Below, piece after piece: positions 4,520 to 30,560 of a DNA stretch of 31,812 bases. The notes beneath the pieces are model-generated. The model did not search any database. It saw nothing but the letters and a program-made list of their open reading frames with translations, and was not told the origin of the DNA. The first letter of the stretch is position 1; each line of letters starts with the position of its first letter. The position numbers and the translations under genes were made by a program. The DNA is from a virus, in the IMG/VR virus record IMGVR_UViG_3300048590_000137, positions 1 to 31,812 of that record, one strand, 5' to 3'.

Positions 4520-4538
4520 CCTGCCGGCGTCGACCCCC

Positions 4539-4568
4539 GGGGGTGGGCCGCTTCGGTGGCCCGCCCCC
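4539..4568 (+). terminator. 13-bp hairpin with UUCG tetraloop after the capsid gene
   Basis: A GGGGGTGGGCCGC arm pairs with the downstream G/C-rich arm around a C(UUCG)G tetraloop. It gives 13 consecutive pairs, including two G-U wobbles. It begins 19 nt after the capsid stop. No T-tract follows, so it may be a partial terminator, an mRNA 3'-end stabiliser or a processing site that sets high capsid expression over the genes downstream. A related hairpin lies at 15982-16000. Confidence 0.6.
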
Positions 4569-4596
4569 ACCCACATCATCCGAGCGGGGAGGCCGC

Positions 4597-4761
4597 ATGG
4601 AGATCACCGAGAAGGTCGTCGTCGACGGCCGAGAGTGGACTGTCGTTCACACATCCAAGGAACCGTCTGTCGTGGAGCAGGCGACCGCCGCCCCCGGGGA
4701 ACTGCGGGAGACGCGCAAGCGTCGCCGCCCATGGTTCTCCTCGTGGCGAACCGTCCGATGA
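4597..4761 (+). CDS. Small basic protein of unknown function
   Basis: This is a 54-residue ORF with a good GGGGAGG ribosome-binding sequence at 4586-4592, 4 to 5 nt before the ATG. The first half, MEITEKVVVDGREWTVVHTS, could form a short beta hairpin. The C-terminus is strongly basic and aromatic (RKRRRPWFSSWRTVR), suggesting contact with nucleic acid or membrane. Its stop overlaps the glycosyltransferase start as ATGA, so it opens the inserted glycosyltransferase and methyltransferase cassette and may couple its translation. I do not recognise a family. Confidence 0.6.
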   Translation: MEITEKVVVDGREWTVVHTSKEPSVVEQATAAPGELRETRKRRRPWFSSWRTVR

Positions 4762-5504
4762 TTCGAGGCGCGGTCACTGTCGGGTTCCTCCATCCCGGCA
4801 AGTGGTCGGCTGTGTTCGGCAACTCGCTCATGGAGCTGATGCTTCACGACGTGGCCGCCGAACAGCGCATGTTTCGGCATCGTCACGGGTGGATGGGTAA
4901 GGAGACCGGCGCAGGGCACATCCACGCCGGGCGTAACCGGATAGCCGCTGCTGTGCTCGACGAGTCCGAAGCCGAGTGGCTTTGGTTCGTGGACGCGGAC
5001 ATGGGGTTTGCGGGTGACACCGTGGATCGGCTCATAGCGTCAGCGGACCCGACGGAACGTCCAGTGATGGGCGGGCTGGCCTTCGCTCAGAAGTCCGATG
5101 GGGTCGGCGAGTTCGGTGCCAGGCGCTACCGGATGTGCCCGACCGTCTACCGGATGGGGGAGACCGACACGGAGGTGGGGTTCGCCCCCATCTTCGACTA
5201 CCCGAGAGGCGAAGTCGTCGAGGTCGCAGCCACGGGCTGCGCTTGCCTCCTCATCCACCGCGACGCTCTGGACAAGGTCCGCTCCGAGCATGGTGACCGC
5301 TGGTTCGACGGCATCGAGGTACCGAAAGGGCCCGGCGGTCGGACAGTGTTCGGAGAGGACATCTCGTTCTGCCTCAGGCTCGCAGCCTGTGGCATCCCAG
5401 TTCACGTCGATACCTCGGTCAGGACGACTCACGACAAGGGTGGGGTGTTCTTCGACGAGGAGACCTACGACCTTCAGCGAGCGATGCTTCGTGTTGGGTC
5501 CTGA
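4758..5504 (+). CDS. Glycosyltransferase, GT-A fold (family 2-like)
   Basis: The product is probably an enzyme that transfers a sugar from a nucleotide-sugar donor; acceptor unknown. It is 248 residues from the ATG at 4758, chosen because it overlaps the preceding TGA; an in-frame ATG at 4731 lacks that coupling. The DXD metal and donor-binding motif is FVDADMGF (Asp79, Asp81), preceded by AGRNRIAAAVL and WLWF. Further landmarks are VAATGCACLLIHRDAL and FGEDISFCLRLAACGIPVHV, matching the acidic ED motif of GT-A enzymes, and a C-terminal THDKGG. No membrane segment is seen. It is embedded in the head gene operon with a membrane protein and a methyltransferase. Confidence 0.85.
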   Translation: MIRGAVTVGFLHPGKWSAVFGNSLMELMLHDVAAEQRMFRHRHGWMGKETGAGHIHAGRNRIAAAVLDESEAEWLWFVDADMGFAGDTVDRLIASADPTERPVMGGLAFAQKSDGVGEFGARRYRMCPTVYRMGETDTEVGFAPIFDYPRGEVVEVAATGCACLLIHRDALDKVRSEHGDRWFDGIEVPKGPGGRTVFGEDISFCLRLAACGIPVHVDTSVRTTHDKGGVFFDEETYDLQRAMLRVGS

Positions 5505-7763: not shown

Positions 7764-8299
7764 TGGGGGTGTCGACGTCGCCGGAGCAGTTGGTGGCGAA
7801 GCTGGAACGCTCCGTGAAGAACGTGCAGAAGGCGACCAAGGACACGCTCTCCGATTCGGCCGACCTGGTGCGTGCGGCGGTCCTCGCTCAGGCGGCCGGG
7901 GAGATCGGAGCGGACCTCTCATTCGGCGGGAAGAAGCGGGTGGGTGTGTCCACGAAGGTCGCCGGGGATCAGGCGCAGGTGAAGGCAACCGGTCCGATGC
8001 ACTGGCTGGAGCGGGGCGTGAAGCCTCACGCCATCGCCCCGAAGAAGGCGGGCGGTTCCCGTGCTTCTCGCACGGCGTTCGTGGCGCAGGCTTTCGGGTC
8101 GGGTCCTATCAGCTACGGGCGTGGCCGCAAGTCCGGTGCCCTCCGCTTCGCGTCCGGTGAGTTCCGGCCGTACGCCCGCAAAGCAGGCCGGTTCACGCCG
8201 CGGCAGTCGTGGTCCAAGGGAGTCAACAAGGCGGAGCCGCTGGTGCGTCGCCGGTTCCGTGTCGGTGTCGGAAACGCAGCGCTCGCCCCGTTCCGCTGA
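7763..8299 (+). CDS. Neck / tail-completion protein (HK97 gp10-like)
   Basis: This 178-residue basic protein starts at the ATG overlapping the previous TGA. An N-terminal helix (SPEQLVAKLERSVKNVQKAT) is followed by SDSADLVRAAVLAQA, then strands containing KATGPMHWLERGVKPHAIAP. The latter is the signature region of the HK97 gp10 group, in which an E-x-G-x-x-x-H pattern recurs. The C-terminus is rich in Arg and Gly. Proteins of this group sit at the neck between head-closure ring and tail tube. The extra Arg/Lys-rich loop around residues 85-150 is longer than in the smallest members. Confidence 0.75.
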   Translation: MGVSTSPEQLVAKLERSVKNVQKATKDTLSDSADLVRAAVLAQAAGEIGADLSFGGKKRVGVSTKVAGDQAQVKATGPMHWLERGVKPHAIAPKKAGGSRASRTAFVAQAFGSGPISYGRGRKSGALRFASGEFRPYARKAGRFTPRQSWSKGVNKAEPLVRRRFRVGVGNAALAPFR

Positions 8300-8302
8300 C
8301 TG

Positions 8303-9301
8303 ATGACACGCGCCATGGTGGTCGGCCCGTTGGCCGACTGGTCAACCTACGACGTCGCGCGCGGATGGGCGGAAGGTCTCGGAGAGGTCGGCTGCCAGGT
8401 CGCCTACTACGACCTCTCGAAACGGGTGCTGTTCTACGCGGGGGTCGACCGGGGCGACGGTGACCGGATGGACCTCGACGAGGCCCGCCAGCTCGCCACG
8501 GTGAACCTCCTCGGCGAGGTGTACCGGTTCGATCCTGACGTGGTGTTCATCGTGCACGGGGCGCACGTGTGGCCCCCGCATCTCGCCAGCCTGCGCTGCC
8601 GTTCAGTGTGGGTGCTCACCGAGTGCCCGTATGAGACGGAGGCGCAGGCGCTCACTGTGTCCCACGCTGATCCGTCGCTGATCCTGGTGAACGATCCGCA
8701 CGGGGCGGACGTGTTCGCCCAGATCGCCCCGACCTACTACAGCCCGCACGCCTATCGACCCGGCGTGCACTGTCCGGATGGTCCAGCCCGGAAGTCCGAC
8801 GTGTGCTTCGTGGGCACCGCCTACCCGGAGCGGGTCGCGATGTTCGAGGCGGTCGACTGGTCGGGCGTCGACCTGGCGTTGCTCGGCATGTGGGAGACCC
8901 TCGCCGATGACTCGCCGCTGTGGCGCCATGTCGTCGAAGGCGGCTGTGTCGACAACGTCGAGACGGTCGAGTGGTACCGGGGCGCCGGCATCGGGCTGAA
9001 CATCTACCGCCACGGCGCCCACGGGGAGCACTCCACCGACGACGGCTACGCCATCGGTCCTCGTGAGGTCGAGCTGGCCGCTACCGGGGCGTTCTTCCTG
9101 CGTGACCCTCGCCCGGAATCCGATGAGCTGTTTCCGTTCCTACCGGCGTTCACCACGCCGGAGGAGTTGGCCGCGCTGGTCGCCGAGTGGCTGCCACGTG
9201 AGGACGACCGGGCTGCGCTCGGTGCCCGTGCCCGAGCGGCGGTCGCCGACCGCACCTTCGCCAACCATGCCCGTCGCGCACTGGCGCGGCTCGGGCTCTA
9301 A
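8303..9301 (+). CDS. Glycosyltransferase, GT-B fold (CgeB-like)
   Basis: This is a 332-residue soluble enzyme, probably transferring a sugar to a phage or host acceptor. The N-terminal Rossmann half holds FDPDVVFIVHGAHVW and SVWVLTECPYETE. The C-terminal half begins SDVCFVGTAYPERVAMF and carries ADDGYAIGPREVELAATG-type sequence ending AFFLRDPR. That corresponds to the donor-binding region of CgeB/GT4-like spore and phage glycosyltransferases, with an R-x-x-E-x-x-A-x-G pattern. ATG at 8303 lies 3 nt after the previous stop. It sits between the neck genes and the major tail protein. It differs in fold from the GT-A enzyme upstream, so two separate sugar-transfer steps are likely. Confidence 0.82.
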   Translation: MTRAMVVGPLADWSTYDVARGWAEGLGEVGCQVAYYDLSKRVLFYAGVDRGDGDRMDLDEARQLATVNLLGEVYRFDPDVVFIVHGAHVWPPHLASLRCRSVWVLTECPYETEAQALTVSHADPSLILVNDPHGADVFAQIAPTYYSPHAYRPGVHCPDGPARKSDVCFVGTAYPERVAMFEAVDWSGVDLALLGMWETLADDSPLWRHVVEGGCVDNVETVEWYRGAGIGLNIYRHGAHGEHSTDDGYAIGPREVELAATGAFFLRDPRPESDELFPFLPAFTTPEELAALVAEWLPREDDRAALGARARAAVADRTFANHARRALARLGL

Positions 9302-9760: not shown

Positions 9761-10120
9761 ATGAGCGGGGAGTTCGTGGTCAACACTCAGGGGGGACAGG
9801 TGCGGCTCGCCGACCTCCCCCTCGACGTCCTGGCGAAGATGGAGAAGGAGTCGGGCGTGCAGTGGCTCCGGCTGGTGCTCGCTCCTGCCACCACCGCGCT
9901 GTCGGCGTCGGTCGTCTACCGGACGTGTTGCGAGCACCTCGGCGTCGAACCCGAGGAGCTGACAGCGCGGCGGATCATCGAGGGCGACATCTTCACCGAA
10001 GGTGACGACGACCTCCCCACGATGTTCGAGGACGGGGCACCCGCCCCAAAAGCGGAGGGCGGGACACCGACACCTGGGTCATCTGGGGAGCCCGACGATT
10101 CGGATGGCCTCCCGACGTGA
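9761..10120 (+). CDS. Tail assembly chaperone, short form (gpG-like)
   Basis: This is the 119-residue unshifted product. The N-terminal domain is helical (LADLPLDVLAKMEKE, WLRLVLAPATTALSASVVYRTC) and the C-terminal tail is acidic and Pro/Gly-rich (PAPKAEGGTPTPGSSGE), as in gpG-type chaperones that coat the tape measure protein during tail assembly. ATG 9761 follows the tail tube stop by 6 nt. The gene contains the slippery heptamer CCCAAAA, which gives rise to the longer form listed separately. Confidence 0.85.
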   Translation: MSGEFVVNTQGGQVRLADLPLDVLAKMEKESGVQWLRLVLAPATTALSASVVYRTCCEHLGVEPEELTARRIIEGDIFTEGDDDLPTMFEDGAPAPKAEGGTPTPGSSGEPDDSDGLPT

Positions 10121-10173
10121 CGTTGCGGCAGCCACTGCGCGAGCTCCAGCTACTCGCGCTGTCCGGTATCTAG
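9761..10173 (+). CDS. Tail assembly chaperone, -1 frameshifted long form (gpGT-like)
   Basis: Reading the zero frame to 10051 and continuing in the -1 frame from 10051 gives a 137-residue fusion. The added 40 residues include DTWVIWGARRFGWPPDVTL and RQPLRELQLLALSGI, a compact Trp/Arg-rich helical domain of the kind seen in gpT extensions. It ends at TAG 10171-10173, 13 nt before the tape measure ATG. The -1 frame has no start codon of its own with a ribosome-binding sequence, so frameshifting is the natural way to express it. In lambda-type phages the G to GT ratio is essential for tail assembly. Confidence 0.8.
10045..10051 (+). other. -1 programmed frameshift slippery heptamer
   Basis: The heptamer CCCAAAA is in register C CCA AAA with the chaperone frame (codons at 10046 and 10049), the canonical X XXY YYZ arrangement. 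Slipping back one base lets the Pro and Lys tRNAs re-pair and opens the frame that ends at 10173. The sequence just downstream is G-rich (GCGGAGGGCGGG) and could form a stimulatory structure, which I have not folded. Confidence 0.8.
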
Positions 10174-10186
10174 AGGCGGTGATCTG

Positions 10187-12520
10187 ATGGCGACTGCAAC
10201 CGAGCTGCTGCGGCTGGTCATCGACGCCGACGCGAAGGGCGCGCTCGCTGGGATGGAAGCGGTCGGCGCGTCCGCCGAGAAGAACCTCGGCAAGACCGAC
10301 GACAAGATGCGCCGGATAGGTGCCGGGCTGACGACGTTTGGCGCAGGGTTGGCGACGGCCGGCGCGGTGGCGGGGGTCGGGCTGTTCAAGCTGGCGCAGA
10401 TGTCCGAGGACGCGGAGCAGCAGTCCCGGAAGCTCGCCAACTCGGTAGCGAACAGCGACCATGTGTTCCGGTCGAATGGTGACGCGCTGCGGGATCAGGC
10501 GCAGGCGCTGCAGCAGGTGACTGCGGCGGATGCCGATGCGGTGATCGGTGCTCAGTCGCTGCTCGTGCAGTTCGGCGAGACCGAGGCGCAGGTACAGACG
10601 CTTACGCCGTTGATGGTCGACTTGTCCCGCAAGATGGGTGTGGACCTCGATGTGGCGGCGAAGGCGATCGGCAAGTCGGTGGATGGCTCGTCGGGCGCGC
10701 TCAAGAAGATGGGGATTGAAGTCGATGAGGCGAAGTTCGCCATCGACCCGTTCGCTGCGACGGTCGAGGCGTTGCGGGGCACCGTCGGCGGGTTCGCTGA
10801 GCAAGAGGGCGCGTCGTTCAACGGCCAGCTGGAGATCCTCAAGAACAACCTCGGGGACCTCGGCGAGGCTGTCGGTGGCGGTGCAGCGGGTGTGCTATCG
10901 GACTTCACCGAGAAGCTTTCGGGGATGGCGCGCTACCTGGGGGAGACCAACCCTCAGATGGGTGAGCTGGTCGGCCGGATCGGTGCTATCGGGTCGGCTG
11001 CGGCGGTCGGCCTGGGCGGGCTGTCGTTTGTGGCCGGGCAGGCGCTCAAACTGCGCGATGTCCTAACGGTGGTGGGGGATGACGGTACCCGGTCGCTTAC
11101 CAAGATGGGGACAGCGATGAAGGGGCTGTCGATCGGTGCGGGGATCGTCGCTGCCGTGTGGGCGCTGGACGCTGGCATGAAGGCTCTGACGACGGACGCG
11201 GGGGACCTCGCTGCGAACATGGACCGGTTCAGTGCCGCGGATAGCGGAGCGAGGGCGTTTGGTGTGCTCGTCGAGCGCACGAAAGAACTCGACGGCGCGT
11301 GGGACGACGCGATGGACACCTTCATCGCAGGCCACGGAGAGATGGTCACCATCGGAGATGACGCAAACGCGATCTCTGTTGACATGAACAACCTCAAGAC
11401 GGCCTTCGAGGACGCGGCCAATGCCGGGAACTTTGAGCAGCTCGGCGCCGCTCTCGACTACATCGAGCAGCAGGGCTTCGATGCGGGTGCGGGGTTCACC
11501 AACTTCTCCGAGATCCTTGACGGTGCCAGGGAGCGGGTAGACGCTCACGCAGCCGCCACGGCTGCCGCCGCTGACCCGTCGAGCGAGATGGCTGAGGTGA
11601 TGGGCACCCTCGGCGCCGAGACCGAGGAAGCGGCGGACGCATTCCAGCAGTACGCCGACACCGTACTCGGGTCGCTGAACTCGATGACCGGGATGACCGA
11701 AGCAGCAATCGACCTTGCAGAGTCACAACGTGACGTGATGAAGGCCACAGCCGAAGTGCAACGGCTCGAGAAAGAAGGCAAGCGCGGCACAGAGGAGTAC
11801 GCCGCCGCCGTCGAGGAACTGAACGACGCGAACTGGGACGCCTCCAAGTCGGCGATCAAGCAGCAAGAAGCGGTGCAAAAGCTCAAGTCGGACCTCGACG
11901 CTGGGAGGATCTCCACGGACGCGGCGACCGCCGCTGTGGCGGACCTCGCTGCGTCGGGGGCGATCACCACCGACCAGGCGAACATCCTGAGCTTCGCCAT
12001 CGCCGCCGCGTCGGCGAAGGCGGACGAGCTCGGCCGGAAGAACCCTCGGCCAACGGTGGGGGCTGACACGAAGGGATTCTGGGAGAAGGTGCTGCCGGTC
12101 GCCGGGTGGGATCCTCCCGGCAAGTCCGGTCGGATCGATGCGGACGCTAGGCCGTTCTGGGGATCAGCGGATGCGGTGGAGCGGTGGAATCCGCCGACGA
12201 AGTACATCCAGCTGAGGGCACGGTGGGACGCCGCTTTGTCAAACTTCGGCCTGGGGGGGCGTGCCGCTGGCGGGCCCGTGTCGGCTCGCACGCCGTACAT
12301 CGTCGGCGAGGAGGGCCCTGAGCTGTTCGTGCCCGGGGCGTCCGGCACGATCGTGCCGAACCATCGCCTGGGGTCGTCGTCGTCGGGTTCGCCGGTCGGT
12401 GTGTCGACGGTGAATATCACTGTGAACGCTGTGTCGTCGCATGGGGTGGAGTCGGCGGTGGTCGATGCTCTGGCCCGCGCGAATCGGGCGGGGCTCGCCG
12501 CCGTGCCTGGGGTGCGCTGA
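10187..12520 (+). CDS. Tape measure protein
   Basis: This protein sets tail length. It is 777 residues, which at about 0.15 nm per residue suggests a tail near 115 nm. It starts MATATELLRLVIDADAKGAL, followed by long heptad-rich helices. Hydrophobic segments such as LTTFGAGLATAGAVAGVGLF (about residue 50) and AAVGLGGLSFVAGQAL lie within the first third. The C-terminus carries the actinophage-typical AAGGPVSARTPYIVGEEGPE and VPGASGTIVP, then a beta-like end NITVNAVSSHG. No lytic transglycosylase or peptidase domain is evident inside. The stop overlaps the next start (TGATG). Confidence 0.92.
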   Translation: MATATELLRLVIDADAKGALAGMEAVGASAEKNLGKTDDKMRRIGAGLTTFGAGLATAGAVAGVGLFKLAQMSEDAEQQSRKLANSVANSDHVFRSNGDALRDQAQALQQVTAADADAVIGAQSLLVQFGETEAQVQTLTPLMVDLSRKMGVDLDVAAKAIGKSVDGSSGALKKMGIEVDEAKFAIDPFAATVEALRGTVGGFAEQEGASFNGQLEILKNNLGDLGEAVGGGAAGVLSDFTEKLSGMARYLGETNPQMGELVGRIGAIGSAAAVGLGGLSFVAGQALKLRDVLTVVGDDGTRSLTKMGTAMKGLSIGAGIVAAVWALDAGMKALTTDAGDLAANMDRFSAADSGARAFGVLVERTKELDGAWDDAMDTFIAGHGEMVTIGDDANAISVDMNNLKTAFEDAANAGNFEQLGAALDYIEQQGFDAGAGFTNFSEILDGARERVDAHAAATAAAADPSSEMAEVMGTLGAETEEAADAFQQYADTVLGSLNSMTGMTEAAIDLAESQRDVMKATAEVQRLEKEGKRGTEEYAAAVEELNDANWDASKSAIKQQEAVQKLKSDLDAGRISTDAATAAVADLAASGAITTDQANILSFAIAAASAKADELGRKNPRPTVGADTKGFWEKVLPVAGWDPPGKSGRIDADARPFWGSADAVERWNPPTKYIQLRARWDAALSNFGLGGRAAGGPVSARTPYIVGEEGPELFVPGASGTIVPNHRLGSSSSGSPVGVSTVNITVNAVSSHGVESAVVDALARANRAGLAAVPGVR

Positions 12521-14475
12521 TGTCGACGGCGATGCCGGCGACGGTCACGGTCCAGTTCGGGTTCGGGTCGCCGCCTGACGCGGCGTCGCCAACCTGGGTT
12601 GATGTCTCGTCGTTCGTGATGGTGGCTGATGGGATCACGATCACACCTGGACGGACGGCGGAGCGATCCTCGATCTCACCGAGACGGCTGAGCTTCACTC
12701 TCGACAACAGCGACGGCCGGTTCAACCCGCGCAACGTGTCGGGGCCGTACTACGGCGACCTTGTCCCGCGGGTGCCGGTGCGGGTGCGTGTGAACTACAG
12801 CTCGACCGACTACACGTTGTTCCGCGGGTTTGTGGATGGCGGGTGGCCGCAGGACTTCGCCCAGCAGTCCCGGACGGTGCCGATTCAGGCGGTGGACGCG
12901 GTCGGGTGGGCGGCGCAGGCACCGACTCCACGCTCGGCGTATGAGGCTGAGGTGCAGAGGTTGCAGGAGGTGGAGGGGGCGACGCTGCTCGGCTGGATCC
13001 GTCCGCAGTCGGATGGGACGTGGGTGGAGCGCATGTCGGGTCACAACTGGCCGAACAGCGCAGCGTTCACCCGGACCGATGCGGGGGACGCGTTGGTCGA
13101 TGGTGACGAGGAGGGCGGGTGGGTGACCGAGACCGCATCGGGTGGCTCCGACCTGTCCGATAAGGTGCCCGCCCCGTTGTTCTCGACGGCGTCGAACGGG
13201 CTGATCGTGTTGTGGGTGCGGTCGTCGCAGACCACGGACATGGTGCCGATCGAGATCCAGCAGGACGACGACATGGTCCGCGTCACGTTGCGGGACGGCG
13301 ACGGGCTGTCGTTCCTGTCGATGCATGGCACCGACTGGCGCAACGACTACACACCCTCGCCGCTCATCGGTGAGGGATGGGACGTGCTCGACGGCCAGGT
13401 GCATATGGTCGCCTACAGCGCGTCGGCTGCGGATTTCGGCGATTGCTGGGTCGACGGCAAGCCGAAGCTGACGATCCCCTCGACGGCGACCGTGTCCGCG
13501 GGGACCGACAACTGGACGCTCGTCGGGCGGTACTCGTCATCGGGGGCGGTCGTCAACGGCGGGCAGGTCGACGGCGCCGTCGACCACATCACGTGGTGGA
13601 CCGACACCGCAGCATGGTCCGTCACCGTGGAGGAAGCGGTCACGTCGCTCCACAGCGCCGGGGTCCTCGCCCGTGCCGGAGACTCCATGTCGGAACGGAT
13701 GGCGTGGCTGCTGGAGTCGACCGGTTGGGGTCTCGTCGGCATCGTCGACTCGTCACAGATCGTCACCCAGCAGGGCTACCGGCGAGCCGGGTCCGTTCTC
13801 GAGCTGTTGCAGCGGTTGGAGGACACGGAGCAGGGCCGCATCTGGGTGGACAATGCCGGGCAGTTCCGGTTCTCCGGGCGGTCCTGGCCGACAGCCGACA
13901 CAGTGTCGTCCACGGTGCAGGCCACCTTCGGCGACACCGGCACCGATCTGCCGTACGCGGCGGCGCTGTCTCGCATCGTCGACGACGACCGGCAGGTGAC
14001 CAACGTCGCCCAGGTCACCCGCGAGTACGGCACCCAACAGATCGCGGAGAACGCGGCGTCCATCGCCGCCTACGGCCGTCGCCAGCCCGTCACACTCTCC
14101 AACCTCCTCTACGCCAACGACCGGCAGTCCAAAGCGGTAGCCGATTGGCTCGTTGCCACCCATGGCGAACCGCAGGCACGGGTCGAGGTGCTCACGTTCC
14201 ATCCGGCGAAGTCCCCCGCATCATTGGTGCCTCTCGCGGCACAACTGGAACCGGGGTGGCTCATCCGAGTGAACCGCGACGGGCTCACATTCGACGCTCA
14301 CGTAGTCGACGTCGGGCATCGCATTGGCGAGACATGGGAGGTGTCGCTCAACCTCGACGCATCGCGAGCGACGGACCTGACCGGGTTCACATGGGATGAC
14401 GGGTCCGGCACGGTCGGCACACCGTGGGATGACGGGACCGGCACCACGACCGGAGCGAAAGGCTGGGTGTTCTGA
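12520..14475 (+). CDS. Distal tail / baseplate protein with LamG-like insert
   Basis: This 651-residue protein follows the tape measure, the usual place of the distal tail (Dit) or Tal protein. The N-terminal 130 residues (VTVQFGFGSPP, SPRRLSFTLDNSDGRFNP, LFRGFVDGGWPQDF) resemble the tail-tip domain found in many actinophage minor tail proteins. Residues from about 205 to 385 form a beta-rich insert beginning GSDLSDKVPAPLFSTASNG and including WVDGKPKLTI and NWTLVGRYSS, with the pattern of a laminin-G/concanavalin-like lectin. The C-terminal third (SMSERMAWLLESTGWG, VLELLQRLEDTEQGRIWVD) returns to the baseplate fold. The insert may bind glycans; that is inference from fold. Confidence 0.78.
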   Translation: MSTAMPATVTVQFGFGSPPDAASPTWVDVSSFVMVADGITITPGRTAERSSISPRRLSFTLDNSDGRFNPRNVSGPYYGDLVPRVPVRVRVNYSSTDYTLFRGFVDGGWPQDFAQQSRTVPIQAVDAVGWAAQAPTPRSAYEAEVQRLQEVEGATLLGWIRPQSDGTWVERMSGHNWPNSAAFTRTDAGDALVDGDEEGGWVTETASGGSDLSDKVPAPLFSTASNGLIVLWVRSSQTTDMVPIEIQQDDDMVRVTLRDGDGLSFLSMHGTDWRNDYTPSPLIGEGWDVLDGQVHMVAYSASAADFGDCWVDGKPKLTIPSTATVSAGTDNWTLVGRYSSSGAVVNGGQVDGAVDHITWWTDTAAWSVTVEEAVTSLHSAGVLARAGDSMSERMAWLLESTGWGLVGIVDSSQIVTQQGYRRAGSVLELLQRLEDTEQGRIWVDNAGQFRFSGRSWPTADTVSSTVQATFGDTGTDLPYAAALSRIVDDDRQVTNVAQVTREYGTQQIAENAASIAAYGRRQPVTLSNLLYANDRQSKAVADWLVATHGEPQARVEVLTFHPAKSPASLVPLAAQLEPGWLIRVNRDGLTFDAHVVDVGHRIGETWEVSLNLDASRATDLTGFTWDDGSGTVGTPWDDGTGTTTGAKGWVF

Positions 14476-16022: not shown

Positions 16023-16451
16023 ATGGCAAACGCACTGTTCGACCCAGGCCGTGAGGGATTCCTCGCGGGTGAGATCGACTTCGACACGGCGACGATCAAG
16101 GCGGCGCTCGTGCGCGGCTACACGTTCTCAGCTGCGCACAAGTTCGTCTCCGAGGTGACCGGTGCCGGCGGCACGCTCGTGGCGACGTCCTCGGCGATCG
16201 CCTCGAAGACCGTCACGAACGGCATCGCCAACAGCGGCGTGTGGGACTTCGGCAACGTCGCTTCCGGTGCGGCGTGCACGCTGATCATCCTGTTCCAGTC
16301 GTCGGCTGTCGGTGGTGGAGCGGATGTCGCAGCGTCAGCGCAGCGGCTCATCGCGTGCATCGACACCGCGACGAATCTGCCGGTGACCCCGAACGGTGGT
16401 CAGATCACCTTCACGCCCGACAGCGGTACCAACAAGATCTTCAAGCTGTGA
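16023..16451 (+). CDS. Small phage structural protein (tail-associated)
   Basis: This 142-residue beta-rich protein begins MANALFDPGREGFLAGEIDF, followed by DTATIKAALVRGYTFSAAH. The opening, with a short N-terminus and then an INxxTxTIK-VxLV pattern, is widespread among phage structural proteins found near tail fibre genes in many genera; I know no biochemical function. AGGAG at 16011-16015 precedes the ATG. The Ala/Ser/Gly-rich strands (ASKTVTNGIANSGVWDFGNV) fit a small jelly roll or a decoration protein. It starts the fibre gene group after the hairpin. Confidence 0.65.
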   Translation: MANALFDPGREGFLAGEIDFDTATIKAALVRGYTFSAAHKFVSEVTGAGGTLVATSSAIASKTVTNGIANSGVWDFGNVASGAACTLIILFQSSAVGGGADVAASAQRLIACIDTATNLPVTPNGGQITFTPDSGTNKIFKL

Positions 16452-16461
16452 GAGGGGACTG

Positions 16462-18240
16462 ATGTCCTGGTCGATCCCGAACAAGGCGTCAGCGCCTGTC
16501 TCCACGGAACAGGCCAAGTTGTGGTCGTCCGCGCTCGGTGACCTAGTCGCGGGTGCCAACAGCTACGGGGTGATCTACGGCGGTGCGGTCACCTTCGACA
16601 CGGGCCGCACGTTTGACGTGTCGGCCGGTCAGGTGATGTTCGGGTCTGACACGGCTGCTGCCACGATGGTCGACGTCGCCGCGGATTCGGTGACGTTGGA
16701 CGCGTCGCCGACGCCGCGGGTGGATGTCATCCAGGTGGAGGACGATGGCACGGTGTCGGTCGTGAAGGGTGGCGCGTCGGGGGCCGAACCGGAGCCGACG
16801 ACGAACTCGTACCGGTCGATCAAGCTGGCCGCGGTGCTCGTGGATGGGGCGACGCTGTCCGCCGATCACATCTCGGATCGGCGGGTGATGGTCGCTCCGC
16901 GCTATCCGGGTGTGCGTCCGACGCTCACCCGGCGCACTCATTGCGAGTGGGCAACGACGACACCGACGACATCGACCGAGTACACCATCTTCGACAGCTA
17001 CGACACGAACTACGGCGGTGACGGCACGACCGGAGCCGGGTGGGTCTCCAAGCTGGCGTTCATGATGGGCACGAACAACGCCAACTGGCAGTGCGAGCGC
17101 ATCAAGATCTACTACGACGGCGAGGCCACGGCGACGGTCAACATCCCGCTGGCCGCGTGGTTCTCGGCGTGGCACATGACCCCCGGCTCGGGCTGGTCAT
17201 CGAACAGGATCCGGGAGTTCGCGACCTACGTCGACCGCAACGTAGCCGAAGGTGGTGGGGCGTCGGTCTACTACCACCGCGCGGATCTCACCTCCTACAT
17301 CGCCATCCCGTTCATCGACCGGGTCAAGATCACGGTGACCACCCCCGCGAGCTTCGGCACCTACGGGGCTGGCGCGCACTTCTCGATCGTCGACTGGCAC
17401 CGCGGATACGATCCGCGCTTCGGGGTCGGGACCGGACACCGCAAGCTGCGCGTCCACTGGCACACAGGGGCGAGCGAACTCGACGACGGCACGGACACGA
17501 CCGGGTACGCGTCGGAGGCGGTGAAGTCCGGGACGGTGCAGGGCGAGTTCCTGGATCTCGGTCCGGCAACCCAGCTCACGGCGCCGTGCACCGATGTCGC
17601 CACCACCCTCACCGTGAAGGACTCCTCGAATCTGACACAGCATGGGGCGGTCCCGTTCGACTGCTGGATCGAGAACGAGAAGGTCACGGTCACTGCCACC
17701 ACGTCGACGACGCTCACGGTGACCCGTGGTGTCGGTGGGACGACAGCGGTGGCGCATTCGGCGGACGCCGGTGACGACGATCCGCCGGTGCTTGTGGATG
17801 TGGTCCGCGACTTTGGCCCGGGCCGTGTCCGGTTTGTGTCGATGTCCGGTGGTGCCACGTCTCCGATCTGGATGGAGGGCCGTCACGGGATCGCGGTCGA
17901 TAGCGATCCGAGCTTCGCCGTGTTGGGGATGGGTACCGAGGATTTCTACAGCGCCGGCTGGTACAACTACGCGGTCCACGCTGGCGGTGAGGCTGCGTCG
18001 GCGTCGATGGGGTCGACCCTCTGCGGTTCCTGGTGGGCGCGTCAGTCCGGGAGCTGGGCTGCGGCGGCGAGCAAGATGCCGTTCTGGCGGGCGTTCCCTG
18101 TCGAGGGTGACCCTGCCGATCCGCTGCTGTTCTCCCGCGGGTTCACGTGGAAGACGCAGGTGTCGGAGGTCGGTCAAGGGTCGTGGTCCGGCGACACGAT
18201 GTGGGCCCACTCCACCTGTTTCTTCTACACGGAGGACTGA
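16462..18240 (+). CDS. Tail protein with GH172 (DUF2961) glycan-hydrolase domain
   Basis: This 592-residue protein probably belongs to the virion and cleaves a host surface glycan. Residues 1 to about 150 (SWSIPNKASAPVSTEQAKLW, VIYGGAVTFDTGRTFDVSAG, PTPRVDVIQVEDDG) are a phage baseplate attachment-type domain. From about 155 the pattern is that of GH172: IKIYYDGEATATVNIPLAAWF (from residue 214), YIAIPFIDRVKITV, SPIWMEGRHGIAVDSDP, then the hallmark GMGTEDFYSAGWY with Glu493 and Asp494. A beta insert (LTAPCTDVATTLTVKDSS onward, about residues 372-440) interrupts the domain. Known GH172 enzymes act on fructofuranosides or D-arabinofuranosides, including mycobacterial D-arabinan. Substrate here is inferred, not shown. 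Confidence 0.75.
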   Translation: MSWSIPNKASAPVSTEQAKLWSSALGDLVAGANSYGVIYGGAVTFDTGRTFDVSAGQVMFGSDTAAATMVDVAADSVTLDASPTPRVDVIQVEDDGTVSVVKGGASGAEPEPTTNSYRSIKLAAVLVDGATLSADHISDRRVMVAPRYPGVRPTLTRRTHCEWATTTPTTSTEYTIFDSYDTNYGGDGTTGAGWVSKLAFMMGTNNANWQCERIKIYYDGEATATVNIPLAAWFSAWHMTPGSGWSSNRIREFATYVDRNVAEGGGASVYYHRADLTSYIAIPFIDRVKITVTTPASFGTYGAGAHFSIVDWHRGYDPRFGVGTGHRKLRVHWHTGASELDDGTDTTGYASEAVKSGTVQGEFLDLGPATQLTAPCTDVATTLTVKDSSNLTQHGAVPFDCWIENEKVTVTATTSTTLTVTRGVGGTTAVAHSADAGDDDPPVLVDVVRDFGPGRVRFVSMSGGATSPIWMEGRHGIAVDSDPSFAVLGMGTEDFYSAGWYNYAVHAGGEAASASMGSTLCGSWWARQSGSWAAAASKMPFWRAFPVEGDPADPLLFSRGFTWKTQVSEVGQGSWSGDTMWAHSTCFFYTED

Positions 18241-18246
18241 CCGGCG

Positions 18247-21200
18247 ATGGCCGCTTCGGTCCGGTCTTGGGACGCTGAGAACGGGGCGGAGAACGTCACC
18301 TCGGTGACGCTCACCGATCCGGACTCGGGCACGTCCGGTGATCAGATCCTCTACTGGGTGTTCCGTCAGGGTGCCGGGCCGTCGGGTGCTGCTGACGCCC
18401 CGGCGACGCCGTCGGGGCTCACCAAGCGGTTCGACAACATCGGCACTCACGGTTCGAGGTCCTCCTACAGCAAGCACATGGAGGGGTACGACCTCTACGA
18501 CTGCGACGGGTCGGACCAGTCTGAGACGTTCACGGCGTCGACGGGCAATGCGGCAGACCGGGCCGGGGTGCTCGCCCGGATAGCCGGGGTCGACTCGTCG
18601 ACCGTCCAATATCACCAGACGACCGCTGGGAACGTCGCTAACAACGGCACGCTGTCGGCGTGGAAGTTGCCGAACGGCACCACCGACGCCATCGACTATG
18701 TAGACGGTGCGATCACGGTCATCGTCGTCGCGTTCTACGACGGCAACTCGGATGACCAGGACGTGACGATCGACGACTTCACCCTGGATGCCACGACGGC
18801 GGACATGGAGGTGGCCGACGGCACGACGCTGCGCCTGTTCCACCGGGTGTGGTCCGGCAGCGGCACGTCGAACCCGATCATCCGCAACGGCACCGGCGGC
18901 AACATCGCCCCCGTTGCGTTGGCGTGGACATTCGAGGCATCGTCTGCCGCGTCCCAGAACATCGACGGCACCGCCATCGGATCCGCTGAGACTCATGGCG
19001 GGGGTGCGGTCACGATCGGTGCTGTCAACCTGACAGGCACCGCGGTCGCGTCCGCTGAGGCGTTCGGCACGGGTGAGGTCGTCGGCCCGATCGACATGGT
19101 GGGTACGGCCATCGCGTCGGCCGAGGCGCACGGGACCGGAGCCATGTCCGGCGGTGTCATCGACATCACCGGCACCGCGATCGTGTCCGCTGAGGCGCAC
19201 GGCACAGGCACAGTGACCGGCGGTGAGGGCGAGGACTTCGAGGTAGGTGCCGGCTTCATCGGTGACCACGGGCCTTCCCAGGACATCGATGCGTCCGGGG
19301 CCGCCATCGAGTGGAATTCGGGTGGCCCCCAGCTCACCGGCATTGCCCGGAAGCTCTACCACTACCTCGCCACCCTCGACGACAACCAGTGCCTGCCCGG
19401 TGTCCAGAATGGCACGACCTCCGCCGGTGCCGAGGGACCCCCGGGGAGCTCCGGCGATCCTGACGCATGGGCGTCGTGGTTCGCGTCCACGGCGACGACC
19501 ACCACGGAGACATGGGGGAAGCACTCATCATCGTTGCGTCCGGCGATTGTCGGCCAGGAGATCCGCATCACTCCCGCGGGGAAGGAGCAGACGTCCGAGC
19601 CGTTGCAGGTGCTGCTCGACGCGTGGGTGGATCACGGGATCATCCCGCATCTCACGATGCAGGGACCATCGCCGTACCACCCGGACGGCCCGGTCGACAC
19701 CTACAAGGCGTACAAGAACCAGACGGACTCCGGGACGACCTACACCGCCCAGAGCGGCGACAACGTCGATCTGACCTTGTACCTCACCCCAGGCACCGAC
19801 CAGTACAACGACTGGAAGGCCCGGGTGGACGCGTACGCCCAGCGGATCACGGACTACTTCGTCGACCACGTCGACCTCGCAGGCAGCCCCGCTCCGGTCA
19901 TCTTCCGGCCCTTCAACGAGATGCAGGGGAGTTGGTGGTGGTGGGCGGCCGCCAACCATACATCCGCCGAGTTCGTCGCCCTCTGGCAACAGCTCTACGA
20001 CGTGCTGGTGGGTGATTGGGGGCTGTCCAACCTGATATGGGTGTGGGCGCCGGAGCAGTACGCCCGCATATTTTCTGCGCTCGGGTCCAACTACGAGTGG
20101 TCGGACTTTTACCCCGGGGATGCCTACGTGCATGTCACTGGGGTGTCCGCCTATCACGGGTACGATCCCGCGCTCCTCCAGTGCGGTCACGCGCCGACCG
20201 GTGGCGTCGGGACACTTTGCGCCAACGGCACGGACACGATGACTGCTCCGGGCGCCGGGAACTGGTACAAGCGGAAGACCTTCGCCTCGGACAACGATCA
20301 CATCACCGAGCAGTTCGCCGCGATCTCCTACCCGACCTACGCGCAGACCTCCCCCAGTTACGCGATGCTCGCCAACAACTGGGCATTGCTCGATGCGGTC
20401 GCCCCGAGCAAGCCGAAGTGTCTGGCGGAGGCCGATTGGCTGGTCGACCCGCAGACTCTCGCCGATCAGGGCACTCCCTTCTGCTTCCAGCATGTGTGGG
20501 GAACCCACTTCAATGTCACGATGCCCATGTATGCATCGACGGCGTTTGTGCACGATACAGCTGGCGAGTTCGGCGCATTCTCGGTCAGCAAGTCGGGCCG
20601 CGAGGGTGTCACTCAGGCCATCTACAACTCGCCGGGCAGCATTACGGCATCCGAGCTCCCTGATTGGGGCGCCTACGACGTCCCGGACGACGCCGAGGGC
20701 GTCACCGTGATCCAATCCGTCTCGAGCGCGGGGACGACATCGCCCGCCACCCTGACGATCTCTGGCACCACAGCCGACTCGTTGCTCATTGCCGTGGTGC
20801 GCGCGTACAACGTCGCCGCCATCACGACGCCAACGGGGTGGACCGCGGGCCCGGCCTACAACCCCGGCAATCCCCGTTTGGCTGTGTTCTACCGCCGGGC
20901 ACCCGGCGGTGATGTCATCTTGTCGGCGCCGCTGTCCGCTTCCGGTGTGTGGAACGTGCAGGCCATCGAGGTGGCTGGGGTTGTGGACGCGCCTATGGCG
21001 TTCACTGTGGGGGATGACACCGCATGGACCACGTCGGAGGTGTCTTCACCGGTCGCTGTCGACCGGGCGTCAGCGCTGACTGCCCCGGGGATCTCGGTCG
21101 TTGTCGCCGGGCTGAACGTCGGGTCGAACCCGTCGGTCCCCGGGGTGGCAATTGCTGCCACCGATGGCGGAGGCTCGTGGTCTCGTGTCGACCAGACGGG

Positions 21201-22095
21201 CATGGGGTCGTCGGTCTACTCGGTGATGGGGTGGCGGGCACAGGACGCCACCCCAGCTCCGGGCGCCTCGATCTCGTGGACCGGGTCCGAGACCTACGCC
21301 GTGTCGGCCATGATGCTGGCATGGGAGGCGACGCCGCGGGGCCAGGGGATCGCATCGGGTGAGGCTCACGGCACCGGTGCCGTCTCCAGTGGCGGCACCT
21401 CGCTCACCGGTCAGGCGATCGCGTCCGCTGAGGCGCACGGTACCGGGGCCATCGCTGTCGGTGCGGTCGACCTGACGGGCACAGCGATCGCGTCCGCAGA
21501 GGCCCACGGCACGGGCACGGTAAACCCGGGGGCTATCGGGCTCGCGGGCACAGCGATAGCGTCCGCAGAGGCCCACGGCACGGGCACCGTCACTCTCACG
21601 TCGAGCGTGCAGGACGTCGACGGCCAAGCGATCGCATCGGGTGAGGCTCACGGCACCGGGGCCGTCTCCATTGGAGCGGTGAACGTCACGGGCGCCGCTG
21701 TCGTGTCCGCTGAGGTGCATGGCACGGGCACGGTCACTCTCGGGACGACGATCGTCGGTTCCGCTCTCGCCTCAGGCGAGGCTCACGGCACCGGGGCCGT
21801 CTCCATCGGTGACGCGCTGCTCACAGGCCAGGCGATCGCGTCCGCTGAGGCGCACGGTGCCGGGGCCATCTCCACCGGCACTACCACCGTCGGCGGCCAG
21901 GCGATCGCATCCGCTGAGACATTCGGGCTCGGTCAGATCGTGCTTGGCGCACTCATCATCGGCGCGGCCATCGCCGCCGGCGAGGGCCACGGCACCGGGA
22001 CGGTCTCGGTCGGTGCGCCCCCAGCCCGACGGATCCGACGCTCAGCGCGTCGGCCCGACATGTCCCAGTCCGCACGTGAGGAGGGCGACAACTGA
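18247..22095 (+). CDS. Large tail fibre with GH26-like domain and two blocks of repeats
   Basis: This 1282-residue protein has a GGAGG at 18231-18235 before the ATG. Residues 1-235 form a beta domain. Four repeats of the type GTAIASAEAHGTGTV occupy about 241-327. A GH26-like (beta-mannanase clan) TIM barrel covers about 335-805: VIFRPFNEMQGSWWWW holds the probable acid/base Glu558 and CLAEADW the probable nucleophile Glu728, with NLIWVWAPEQ and YPGDAYVHVTGVSAYHG as family landmarks. The usual His before the acid/base is Asn here. A beta-sandwich follows (about 808-1030), then ten more repeats (about 1034-1260) and a basic tail. It is likely a tail fibre that cleaves or binds a mannan-like surface polymer. 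Confidence 0.75.
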   Translation: MAASVRSWDAENGAENVTSVTLTDPDSGTSGDQILYWVFRQGAGPSGAADAPATPSGLTKRFDNIGTHGSRSSYSKHMEGYDLYDCDGSDQSETFTASTGNAADRAGVLARIAGVDSSTVQYHQTTAGNVANNGTLSAWKLPNGTTDAIDYVDGAITVIVVAFYDGNSDDQDVTIDDFTLDATTADMEVADGTTLRLFHRVWSGSGTSNPIIRNGTGGNIAPVALAWTFEASSAASQNIDGTAIGSAETHGGGAVTIGAVNLTGTAVASAEAFGTGEVVGPIDMVGTAIASAEAHGTGAMSGGVIDITGTAIVSAEAHGTGTVTGGEGEDFEVGAGFIGDHGPSQDIDASGAAIEWNSGGPQLTGIARKLYHYLATLDDNQCLPGVQNGTTSAGAEGPPGSSGDPDAWASWFASTATTTTETWGKHSSSLRPAIVGQEIRITPAGKEQTSEPLQVLLDAWVDHGIIPHLTMQGPSPYHPDGPVDTYKAYKNQTDSGTTYTAQSGDNVDLTLYLTPGTDQYNDWKARVDAYAQRITDYFVDHVDLAGSPAPVIFRPFNEMQGSWWWWAAANHTSAEFVALWQQLYDVLVGDWGLSNLIWVWAPEQYARIFSALGSNYEWSDFYPGDAYVHVTGVSAYHGYDPALLQCGHAPTGGVGTLCANGTDTMTAPGAGNWYKRKTFASDNDHITEQFAAISYPTYAQTSPSYAMLANNWALLDAVAPSKPKCLAEADWLVDPQTLADQGTPFCFQHVWGTHFNVTMPMYASTAFVHDTAGEFGAFSVSKSGREGVTQAIYNSPGSITASELPDWGAYDVPDDAEGVTVIQSVSSAGTTSPATLTISGTTADSLLIAVVRAYNVAAITTPTGWTAGPAYNPGNPRLAVFYRRAPGGDVILSAPLSASGVWNVQAIEVAGVVDAPMAFTVGDDTAWTTSEVSSPVAVDRASALTAPGISVVVAGLNVGSNPSVPGVAIAATDGGGSWSRVDQTGMGSSVYSVMGWRAQDATPAPGASISWTGSETYAVSAMMLAWEATPRGQGIASGEAHGTGAVSSGGTSLTGQAIASAEAHGTGAIAVGAVDLTGTAIASAEAHGTGTVNPGAIGLAGTAIASAEAHGTGTVTLTSSVQDVDGQAIASGEAHGTGAVSIGAVNVTGAAVVSAEVHGTGTVTLGTTIVGSALASGEAHGTGAVSIGDALLTGQAIASAEAHGAGAISTGTTTVGGQAIASAETFGLGQIVLGALIIGAAIAAGEGHGTGTVSVGAPPARRIRRSARRPDMSQSAREEGDN
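18967..19227 (+). repeat. Four coding repeats before the GH26 domain
   Basis: Four imperfect copies of a unit of about 20-24 codons, each containing a form of (G)TAIASAEAHGTGxV. Individual cores are AIGSAETHGGGAV, AVASAEAFGTGEV, AIASAEAHGTGAM and AIVSAEAHGTGTV. The hydrophobic/Gly alternation suggests a beta-solenoid or extended fibre. Confidence 0.85.
21346..22020 (+). repeat. Ten coding repeats after the GH26 domain
   Basis: Ten imperfect copies of the same unit as at 18967-19227, with period about 20-24 codons. Cores 2-5 are nearly identical (AIASAEAHGTGxV or AIASGEAHGTGAV) and the last two diverge (AIASAETFGLGQI, AIAAGEGHGTGTV). DNA identity between neighbouring copies is high, so copy number can change by recombination. 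Confidence 0.85.
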
Positions 22096-27380: not shown

Positions 27381-27652
27381 GCGCCACAGCCACCACATGC
27401 CGGTCGTGTGGCGCTCCGATCTGGTGGGCACACACCGCCGCAGGCCGTCTCATCCCCGTGGACAACGCGCCGGTCGACAGCGGAAACATCGTGACCACCG
27501 GGCGGCAGAACGTTAGCGAGTCCATCACCGGGGTGGTCTGTTCTCGACCCGAGGTGAAAGTCGAGGAACCCGGCATGCTCCCCGATGACCGTCCCCGGTA
27601 CGTCGCCCACTTCGCTACGTGTCCGAACGCCGACGAGTGGAGGAAGCGATGA
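27377..27652 (+). CDS. Zinc-ribbon protein of the actinophage type
   Basis: A 91-residue protein from GTG 27377 in a GTGA overlap. It begins MSATATTCRSCGAPIWWAHT followed by AAGRLIPVDNAPVDSGN: the CRSCGAPIxW-x-GRxIPVD arrangement of a small zinc-binding phage protein I recognise from other actinophages. A further Cys pair occurs later (VVCSRPEV and FATCPNADEW). Its role is not known; a single-stranded nucleic-acid or regulatory function is possible. Confidence 0.7.
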   Translation: MSATATTCRSCGAPIWWAHTAAGRLIPVDNAPVDSGNIVTTGRQNVSESITGVVCSRPEVKVEEPGMLPDDRPRYVAHFATCPNADEWRKR

Positions 27653-28149
27653 CCGCCACCGTCGTCGGCTTTGACGTGTCGCTCGCCCGTACCGGGTGGG
27701 CGGTGCTCGACTGGGACACCGGCACGCTGGTGCGCTGCGGGGTGATCGAGACGAACCCCAGGGACCCGTTCGTGGAGCGGCTGTGGGACATCCACCAGGG
27801 GGCGTGGGCCGTTGTGGACAGAGCCCTTGCCGAAGCGGTGGTGGCCGACGTCGGCCTCGAAGCTGGCATCCATCGGGGATCGGGCGCTGTGACCCGCAAG
27901 CTTGCTGCCGCTTGGGGTGCCGTGCTCATGGCGGCAGGGGACACGACTGAGATCGAGCCCGACACGGAACACCCGACGCCGGCCGAGGTGAAGAAGCTCG
28001 CCACCGGCAAAGGCAACGCGACGAAAGCGCAGGTGATGGCTGCCGCGTGTGAACGGTGGGGTTCCCCGGCAGCGGATGCAGACATAGCGGACGCCTGCTG
28101 GGTGGCCGAGTTCGTGAGGCAATCGAGGACCAATAAGGAGACCCGATGA
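27649..28149 (+). CDS. RuvC-like Holliday junction resolvase
   Basis: A 166-residue resolvase expected to cut branched DNA during replication and packaging. It has the RNase H-fold acidic set: VVGFDVSLARTGWAVLDW (Asp9), VGLEAGIHRG (Glu71), and near the C-terminus AADADIADACWVAEF with Asp143, Asp145 and Asp148. The Lys/Thr-rich segment PAEVKKLATGKGNATKAQ is the RuvC-type DNA-binding region. The size matches RuvC. AGGAAG precedes the ATG in the ATGA overlap. Phage RuvC homologs are common in this genome position. Confidence 0.85.
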   Translation: MTATVVGFDVSLARTGWAVLDWDTGTLVRCGVIETNPRDPFVERLWDIHQGAWAVVDRALAEAVVADVGLEAGIHRGSGAVTRKLAAAWGAVLMAAGDTTEIEPDTEHPTPAEVKKLATGKGNATKAQVMAAACERWGSPAADADIADACWVAEFVRQSRTNKETR

Positions 28150-29120: not shown

Positions 29121-29374
29121 GCGGCCGCCAGTCGATCCACCCGCTCACCGAGGCGAGCATCGAACTGCAAGGTCCGAGCCTCATGGTCAGCCAGTTCGGA
29201 TGCGGCTGCGAGCTGCGGGATGGGTGGGAAGCGACAACCGGCAAGTGGTGGCTGTGCTCCTACCACGAAGGCTTCGAGGACGGCATCGAGCGGGCCGAGG
29301 CTGCCCGGTGTGCGTGTGGCCGTCCGGCAGCAGAGACCGTCGCCGGGCAACCCTGCTGCGGAGACGACCGATGA
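29117..29374 (+). CDS. Cys-rich hypothetical protein
   Basis: An 85-residue protein from the ATG in a 4-nt overlap. Cys and Trp are frequent (FGCGCELRDGWEATTGKWWL, CSYHEGFEDGIERAEAA, RCACGRPAAETVAGQPCCG). The two CxC sets plus the later C-C would suit zinc or iron-sulfur binding. No family recognised. Confidence 0.55.
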   Translation: MSGRQSIHPLTEASIELQGPSLMVSQFGCGCELRDGWEATTGKWWLCSYHEGFEDGIERAEAARCACGRPAAETVAGQPCCGDDR

Positions 29375-29751
29375 CCGGCCGGCTGGGTCCACCACCCGTC
29401 ACCGAACCCGACGAGCGGGCATGGATGGAGCACGCCGAATGCCGCGGGCTCGACCCTGCCATGTTCCACCCGGACCGCGGGGACATGGAGACGTTCCGCC
29501 GGGCGGTGGAGGTGTGCGAGGACTGCCCGGTGCGCGCCGAGTGCCTCGAGTGGGCGCTCACCGTGCCGGAGGTGTTCGGGGTGTGGGGCGGCCGTTCGGA
29601 GAAGGCGCGTCAGAAGATGCGGCGCGGGCGCAGGCTCGTGGACATCGTGCGTGAGTGCCGGACGTGCGGGGCTGAGTTCCGTCCGTGGCGCCGCGACCAC
29701 GTCCACTGCTCCGCGAGGTGCCGGAAGCGTGCCGCTGCGAGGGCATCGTGA
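29371..29751 (+). CDS. WhiB-like regulator fused to a C-terminal zinc ribbon
   Basis: A 126-residue protein with a WhiB domain at the N-terminus. The four iron-sulfur cysteines are Cys24 (AECRGLD), Cys49 and Cys52 (CEDCPV) and Cys58 (CLEWAL), followed by GVWGG (residues 70-74) and a basic KARQKMRR DNA-binding tail. Unlike simple WhiB proteins it continues into a second Cys set, CRTCGAEF (Cys96, Cys99) and CSARC (Cys113, Cys117), a zinc ribbon. WhiB proteins are found in actinobacteria and their phages, so this is good evidence for the host phylum. ATG in an ATGA overlap. Confidence 0.88.
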   Translation: MTGRLGPPPVTEPDERAWMEHAECRGLDPAMFHPDRGDMETFRRAVEVCEDCPVRAECLEWALTVPEVFGVWGGRSEKARQKMRRGRRLVDIVRECRTCGAEFRPWRRDHVHCSARCRKRAAARAS

Positions 29752-30560
29752 GAGAGCACGGCACCCACGCCCGCTACGTCGTCGACCGCTGCCGTTGCGA
29801 CCGATGCCGCGCCGCCACCCGCGAGTACGAGCGCGAGCGCCGAGCACGCATCGAACCGGCCTACGTCGCCGCCGGCCCCGCACGCCGCCACGTCGAAGAG
29901 CTCCGCGCCGCCGGGGTCGGCCTCAAGCAGGTGGCGAAGGCCGCAGGACTGCCACACGGGACGCTCTCCAAGCTGATCTACGGCGACAGCGCACGCGGCA
30001 TGGCGCCCTCGAAACGGGTCCGACCCGCCACCGCGGAGCGGATCCTGGCCGTCACCCCCGCGGACATAGCGGACGGAGCCCGAGTCCCCGCGGGCCCGAC
30101 ATGGGAACACGTCGAGCGCCTCGTCGCCGCCGGAGTGCCCCGCGTACGGATCGCGGAACGCATCGGTCAGACCCGAGCACTGCAACTCGGCCGCCAGTGG
30201 GTGCAGGCCCGCCACGCCCGGGAGATCGCCGCCATGGCCGCCGAGCTCGTGCCCGTCGAACCGGCCGACTTGGTCGACGACCGGGACCGGATCACTCTCG
30301 CTCTCGTCGAGATGCTGGAGGACCGCATCGACCAGGCGGGCTGGCGTGCCGAAGCAGCATGCCAGGGGCGTCCGACGTGGATGTGGTTCCCGGCCCGGGG
30401 TGACAGCGCCACCCTCCGCGCAGCCAAGCGAGTGTGCGGCGCCTGCCTGGTCCGTGACGACTGCCTGACGGCGAACCTCCACCAGCGCGACGGCGTGTAC
30501 GGAGGGCTGTCCGCCCGGGAGCGTCGAGCGCTGCGCAGCACCGAGGAGGTGGCGTCGTGA
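29748..30560 (+). CDS. HTH protein with C-terminal WhiB domain
   Basis: A 270-residue protein from GTG in a 4-nt overlap. The N-terminus carries RYVVDRCRCDRCRAATREYE (Cys15, Cys17, Cys20), a motif seen in actinophage proteins with a Zn- or DNA-binding start. HTH-like segments follow (AAGVGLKQVAKAAGLPHGTL, VAAGVPRVRIAERIGQTRAL). The C-terminal 75 residues form a second WhiB-type domain with Cys205, Cys230 (CGAC), Cys233 and Cys239, and GVYGGLS in place of GVWGG. It combines a regulator with an iron-sulfur sensor, directly downstream of a separate WhiB gene. Confidence 0.8.
   Translation: MREHGTHARYVVDRCRCDRCRAATREYERERRARIEPAYVAAGPARRHVEELRAAGVGLKQVAKAAGLPHGTLSKLIYGDSARGMAPSKRVRPATAERILAVTPADIADGARVPAGPTWEHVERLVAAGVPRVRIAERIGQTRALQLGRQWVQARHAREIAAMAAELVPVEPADLVDDRDRITLALVEMLEDRIDQAGWRAEAACQGRPTWMWFPARGDSATLRAAKRVCGACLVRDDCLTANLHQRDGVYGGLSARERRALRSTEEVAS

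Follow-up and report, generated by a model that had tools for sequence, protein, structure and literature searches.

A GH172 (DUF2961) domain with conserved catalytic residues in a phage tail protein, probably for trimming the sugar coat of an actinobacterial host

The locus and its phage

The DNA analysed here is a stretch of 31,812 bases (the window), and it comes from a tailed phage: it encodes terminase, portal, prohead protease, an HK97-type capsid protein, a tape measure protein and a series of tail genes, on the plus strand. The gene of interest, which we call P0001, encodes a tail protein of 592 amino acids. A phrog_644 gene ends 10 bases before its start, and P0002, which encodes a minor tail protein of 1282 amino acids, begins 6 bases after its end. 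The GC3 of P0001 (0.84) is like that of the remaining operon genes. The coordinates of the features are collected in the table.

The GH26 domain of P0002 matches the GH26 mannanase structures 6q75 and 4yn5. It is flanked by GEAHGTGAV-type repeat arrays; the closest related phage, L003, has a repeat array without GH26.

We place the host among the actinobacteria, and at no lower rank, because of the WhiB matches in the window and the relatives of the capsid protein. Among these relatives are loci with 51-56% identity in Nonomuraea wenchangensis, Acrocarpospora phusangensis and one actinomycete MAG, and phages of Mycobacterium and Gordonia with 39-44%. The WhiB matches are two overlapping open reading frames at 29200-30560, possibly duplicate regulators, with a RuvC-like gene upstream of them (27619-28149). 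Among the open reading frames scanned, no LysB was recognised. Between the head and the tail genes lies a glycosyltransferase-like gene (8303-9301; PF13524, E 4e-15), which is kept in the relatives G025 (50%) and G029 (42%).

Features of the P0001 locus (positions in the window)
Feature	Position	Strand	Basis
Tape measure protein and next tail protein (P0003), upstream in the same tail operon	10187..14475	+	phrog_1538/5062 (tape measure), phrog_5313
Swapped cassette, absent from L003	16452..21700	+	main blastn blocks run up to 16451 and again from 21701
P0001, 592-aa tail protein with split DUF2961/GH172 domain	16462..18240	+	open frame; PF11175 E 9.3e-13
P0001 N-terminal ~160 aa, probably a virion-attachment domain	16462..16941	+	weak phrog_358, phrog_877 and DUF4815 matches; inferred
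GH172 jelly roll 1, residues 161-336	16942..17469	+	PF11175 profile 5-68; alignments to cellular GH172 and 7V1V
Phage-tail insert, residues 337-440 (368-436 in the profile match), set in the jelly-roll linker	17470..17781	+	phrog_23837, phrog_1101, phrog_38058
GH172 jelly roll 2 with catalytic residues	17782..18237	+	PF11175 profile 113-216
WMEG; E472, predicted acid/base (alphaFFase1 E270)	17869..17880	+	alignments to cellular GH172 and 7V1V
GTED...W; E493, predicted nucleophile (E291), D494 (D292), W500 (W298)	17932..17961	+	alignments
P0002, 1282-aa minor tail protein; repeat regions on both sides of a GH26 domain (match on residues 492-637)	18247..22095	+	PF02156 E 3e-20; phrog_13352 minor tail

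Family membership and domain layout of P0001

The Pfam profile PF11175 (DUF2961) matches P0001 with an E value of 9.3e-13 and 48.7 bits, where the Pfam gathering cut-off is 27 bits. Both halves of the profile are found in order: profile positions 5-68 on residues 213-295, and 113-216 on residues 443-567. A profile built from 12 actinobacterial DUF2961 proteins alone also recovers the protein (E 2.6e-9), and hhalign matches its jelly roll 1 (E 1.5e-5, 79% probability). Judged by these matches, which are more than chance, P0001 belongs to DUF2961/GH172, at about 19-25% identity to the cellular enzymes. The first-pass annotation had proposed exactly this, a GH172 domain inside a phage tail protein, and the two profile halves together with intact catalytic acids bear it out. 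The three peptides that it had named, SPIWMEGRHG among them, all lie in the frame of P0001 and in the order it gave.

As a single query against the PDB, P0001 matched no chain. A profile of P0001 and six cellular members finds exactly four structures there, all GH172; as this profile is dominated by the cellular rows, we use it solely for carrying over residue numbering. AlphaFold prediction without an alignment says nothing on the fold, since a clear GH172 control (P0004) scores equally low (pLDDT 30, against 31 for P0001).

The DUF2961 domain of P0001 is split in two by an insert of about 100 residues (about 337-440). This insert matches families of virion structural, tail and tail fibre proteins (phrog_23837, E 4e-8; phrog_1101, E 2e-6; phrog_38058, E 3e-5). 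The linker between the jelly rolls is variable in cellular GH172, and thus the fold probably tolerates an insertion of a tail domain at this point. The N-terminal domain had been called baseplate-type; it gives weak profile matches to phrog_358 (E 6e-4), phrog_877 (E 0.007) and DUF4815 (E 0.03), which lend that name little weight. Since these 160 residues match phage families weakly, it is from position and context that we infer docking of P0001 to the tail. Neither the N-terminal domain nor the insert turned up when the related loci were searched by pattern.

The active site

The alignment with 7V1V reproduces the published numbering of alphaFFase1 for W267, E270, N272, E291, D292 and W298 (PMC8605356). 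The catalytic acidic residues are present in it: E472, E493 and D494. The two glutamates of P0001 are 21 residues apart, the same spacing as between E270 and E291 of alphaFFase1. Ten positions are invariant between P0001 and six diverse cellular members: E472, G473, D480, G489, G491, E493, D494, W500, R543 and Y589.

Around the catalytic residues the picture is mixed. In the -1 subsite, W298 corresponds to W500, and Y187' to F307; the Y187F mutant of alphaFFase1 retains 90% of its activity on pNP-alpha-D-Araf (PMC8605356). W267, of the -1/+1 subsite, is not kept: I469 is aligned with it and W470 is adjacent, at a position that varies in cellular members too. The calcium motif GGN.D, with the ligands N31' and D33', was not found in P0001, and N272 is replaced by R474. 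The motif is also absent from one actinobacterial clade of cellular enzymes (L191-L199). Neither W267 nor the calcium ligands define the family, since both vary among its cellular members. At position 299, alphaFFase1 has Gly, and ExoMA1, which is specific for arabinose, has Asn (PMC10509167); P0001 has Y501 here, a residue that would presumably keep fructose out. Retention of the catalytic residues when overall identity is down to about 20% points to a functional enzyme, but to no particular substrate.

A swapped cassette

Over the main shared blocks, the DNA of L003 (IMGVR_UViG_3300048589_000228), the closest phage, is 84-95% identical. These blocks are interrupted by the cassette listed in the table, the boundaries of which set aside short repeat matches; the left one, at 16451, is the end of the gene preceding P0001. 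Where the window has P0001 and the larger part of P0002, L003 carries a GDSL/SGNH-like hydrolase gene (L003 positions 10067-10996; PF13472, E 5e-7, slightly below the Pfam cut-off) and a repeat protein of the minor tail family of P0002. That sister phages differ in the carbohydrate-active enzyme at a single site fits the expectation for enzymes that act on surface glycans. By its place in the tail operon and its swap between close relatives, P0001 is a candidate virion-associated glycan hydrolase.

Relatives in phages and bacteria

Searches of INPHARED, IMG/VR and GTDB contigs gave no close homologue of P0001. Among 50,697 phage records and in IMG/VR there was no relative either, save a stand-alone GH172 gene of gut phages. 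DUF2961 is present in none of the 46 related phage records, many of which are fragments. Scans of IMG/VR for the motif G.GTED hit only LamG, SPRY and further proteins that were unrelated or matched by chance; such pattern-based scans detect only part of the GH172 family. A search of 396 actinobacterial genomes with the protein gave noise only, and a plasmid search found nothing. DUF2961 as such is carried by 25 of the 396 sampled genomes; hence the domain is available to actinobacterial phages.

Four INPHARED records with DUF2961, all named "UNVERIFIED Bacteriophage sp.", lack phage context and were not counted. By their open reading frames three of them (L209, L210 and L211; MT835583, MT835628 and MT836379) look like fragments of Bacteroidota polysaccharide-utilisation loci, and the fourth has no recognisable phage genes.

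The gut phage gene comes from two contigs, L213 and L214, found by a scan with an alignment of cellular GH172 members. Its product, P0004, is a DUF2961 protein of 342 amino acids (L213 positions 7884-8909, L214 positions 3888-4913; E 1.3e-78), with ExoMA1 as nearest solved relative (E 3e-55). In these gut siphophages the gene has its place precisely between Dit and Tal, two genes that overlap directly in related gut phages. The siphophages are kin of Oscillospiraceae/Blautia phages and unrelated to the phage of P0001. Between the two contigs the cassette is 98-100% identical, while the flanks are at about 85%, and behind it stands a strong hairpin followed by T's, resembling a terminator. The cassette looks like a mobile moron rather than a virion domain. 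It is of the same family as P0001 and likewise lies in a tail operon, but it encodes a full-length enzyme of cellular type, is not fused, and has its terminator-like hairpin.

The hypothesis and its alternatives

We propose, with somewhat better than even confidence, that P0001 is a virion-borne, trimeric, exo-acting alpha-furanosidase which trims a surface glycan of the actinobacterial host. Docking to the tail tip is probably the task of its N-terminal domain. The C-terminal two thirds would form the split double jelly roll and assemble into trimers with active sites at the subunit interfaces, like the cellular enzymes. With E493 as nucleophile and E472 as acid/base, the protein would act as a retaining exo-alpha-furanosidase and, at adsorption, remove terminal alpha-D-arabinofuranosyl or similar furanosyl residues from the glycan, and the neighbouring GH26 protein may act on another part of the host coat. 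In favour of this hypothesis are the family match in both halves, the conserved catalytic residues, the tail-type domain inside the GH172 domain, the gaps of 6-10 bp to tail genes, the cassette swap and the second phage group with an intact GH172 gene. Against it are the missing GGN.D, the changes of N272 to R474 and W267 to I469, the weakly recognised N-terminal domain, and the possibility that the domain is a non-catalytic lectin.

The jelly roll could instead have been kept as a trimeric, glycan-binding tip for receptor binding, without useful catalysis, and the lost calcium site, the changed subsite residues (I469, Y501, R474) and an identity of about 19-25% to cellular enzymes would fit. 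However, both catalytic glutamates, D494 and W500 stand at the exact spacing despite this very low identity, which is unlikely without selection for catalysis, and we therefore consider a pure lectin improbable. It is far less credible still that P0001 is an assembly artefact, with a cellular DUF2961 gene joined to a phage contig, or a passenger gene (moron) without a role in the virion. It is true that the contig is metagenomic, that P0001 has no close homologue and that the gut phage gene resembles a moron with its own terminator. But a single continuous reading frame joins the GH172 domain to the N-terminal extension and the phage-tail insert, the spacing in the tail operon is tight, and the flanks are present in the sister phage, with the boundary at a gene end.

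The first-pass annotation went further and saw in P0001 an arabinan depolymerase that opens the mycolyl-arabinogalactan or arabinomannan layer. A mycolata-specific enzyme of this kind would degrade the arabinogalactan or lipoarabinomannan (LAM) of a Mycobacteriales host and so open its envelope. Indeed, GH172 enzymes free D-arabinose from arabinogalactan and LAM, intact cell walls treated with NocGH172 give off labelled material (PMC10115798), and the capsid protein is related to those of Mycobacterium and Gordonia phages. We nevertheless judge this reading unlikely. The term depolymerase does not suit the family, as the GH172 enzymes characterised in PMC8605356, PMC10115798 and PMC10509167 work in the exo mode, setting free terminal sugars, and ExoMA1 without an endo enzyme does not act on intact LAM (PMC10509167). 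Nor did anything found show the host to be a mycolata: the nearer capsid relatives, those in Nonomuraea, Acrocarpospora and the actinomycete MAG, are prophages, and the open reading frames scanned include no recognised LysB. The partner enzyme, moreover, is of GH26, a beta-mannanase-type family. A depolymerase of arabinan is possible only if the host is of the mycolata and the action goes beyond the exo mode of the members characterised in these papers.

Significance and comparison with known systems

GH172 has until now been reported from cells only, and a phage tail protein is a new setting for it. A family survey found no virus-specific genes near DUF2961 (PMC8812541; 2022), a statement that is contradicted by two unrelated phage groups with GH172. 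The novelty that had been suggested, a new role for the family in phage entry, holds as regards its place in a phage tail (compare PMC8812541); hydrolysis of arabinan by a phage was already known from the active GH183 endo-D-arabinanase of the Gordonia phage GMA6 (PMC10115798). Tail-borne enzymes that cut sugars determine the host choice of many phages, and GH172 would be new among them. The bonds that the family cleaves, alpha-D-arabinofuranosyl and alpha-D-fructofuranosyl, are the target of few known enzyme families. Since both catalytic glutamates are kept in its GH172 domain, the virus is likely to trim a sugar coat of its host. We would put it a little short of even that a double jelly-roll enzyme family now serves as a working, trimeric part of a phage tail that trims glycans, and that GH172 genes were taken up into phage tail operons on two or more independent occasions.

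A related fold and the trimeric state are claimed to be shared by the GH172 family and the double jelly-roll capsid proteins (PMC8812541), and the common ancestry proposed for the two makes any further viral use of the family of interest. P0001 itself is not a capsid protein; the phage encodes its own, of HK97 type.

The nearest known systems are the GH172 exo-alpha-D-arabinofuranosidases and the alpha-D-fructofuranosidase: ExoMA1 (8IC8), alphaFFase1 (7V1V), the D. gadei enzyme (8AH3) and NocGH172, with 4KQ7 as a further, unassayed structure. P0001 resembles them in belonging by sequence to the double jelly-roll family and in having the Glu pair, the Asp and the Trp spaced as in alphaFFase1. 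It differs in its phage tail operon, its N-terminal extension, the tail domain between its jelly rolls and the lack of the GGN.D calcium motif. With GH183 (DUF4185) of GMA6 it shares being encoded by a phage and being directed (in the case of P0001, by prediction) at furanosyl glycans of the actinobacterial wall. The GMA6 enzyme, however, is a five-bladed propeller, endo-acting and shown to be active, whereas P0001 belongs by sequence to GH172, a family of unrelated fold, and is expected to be exo-acting.
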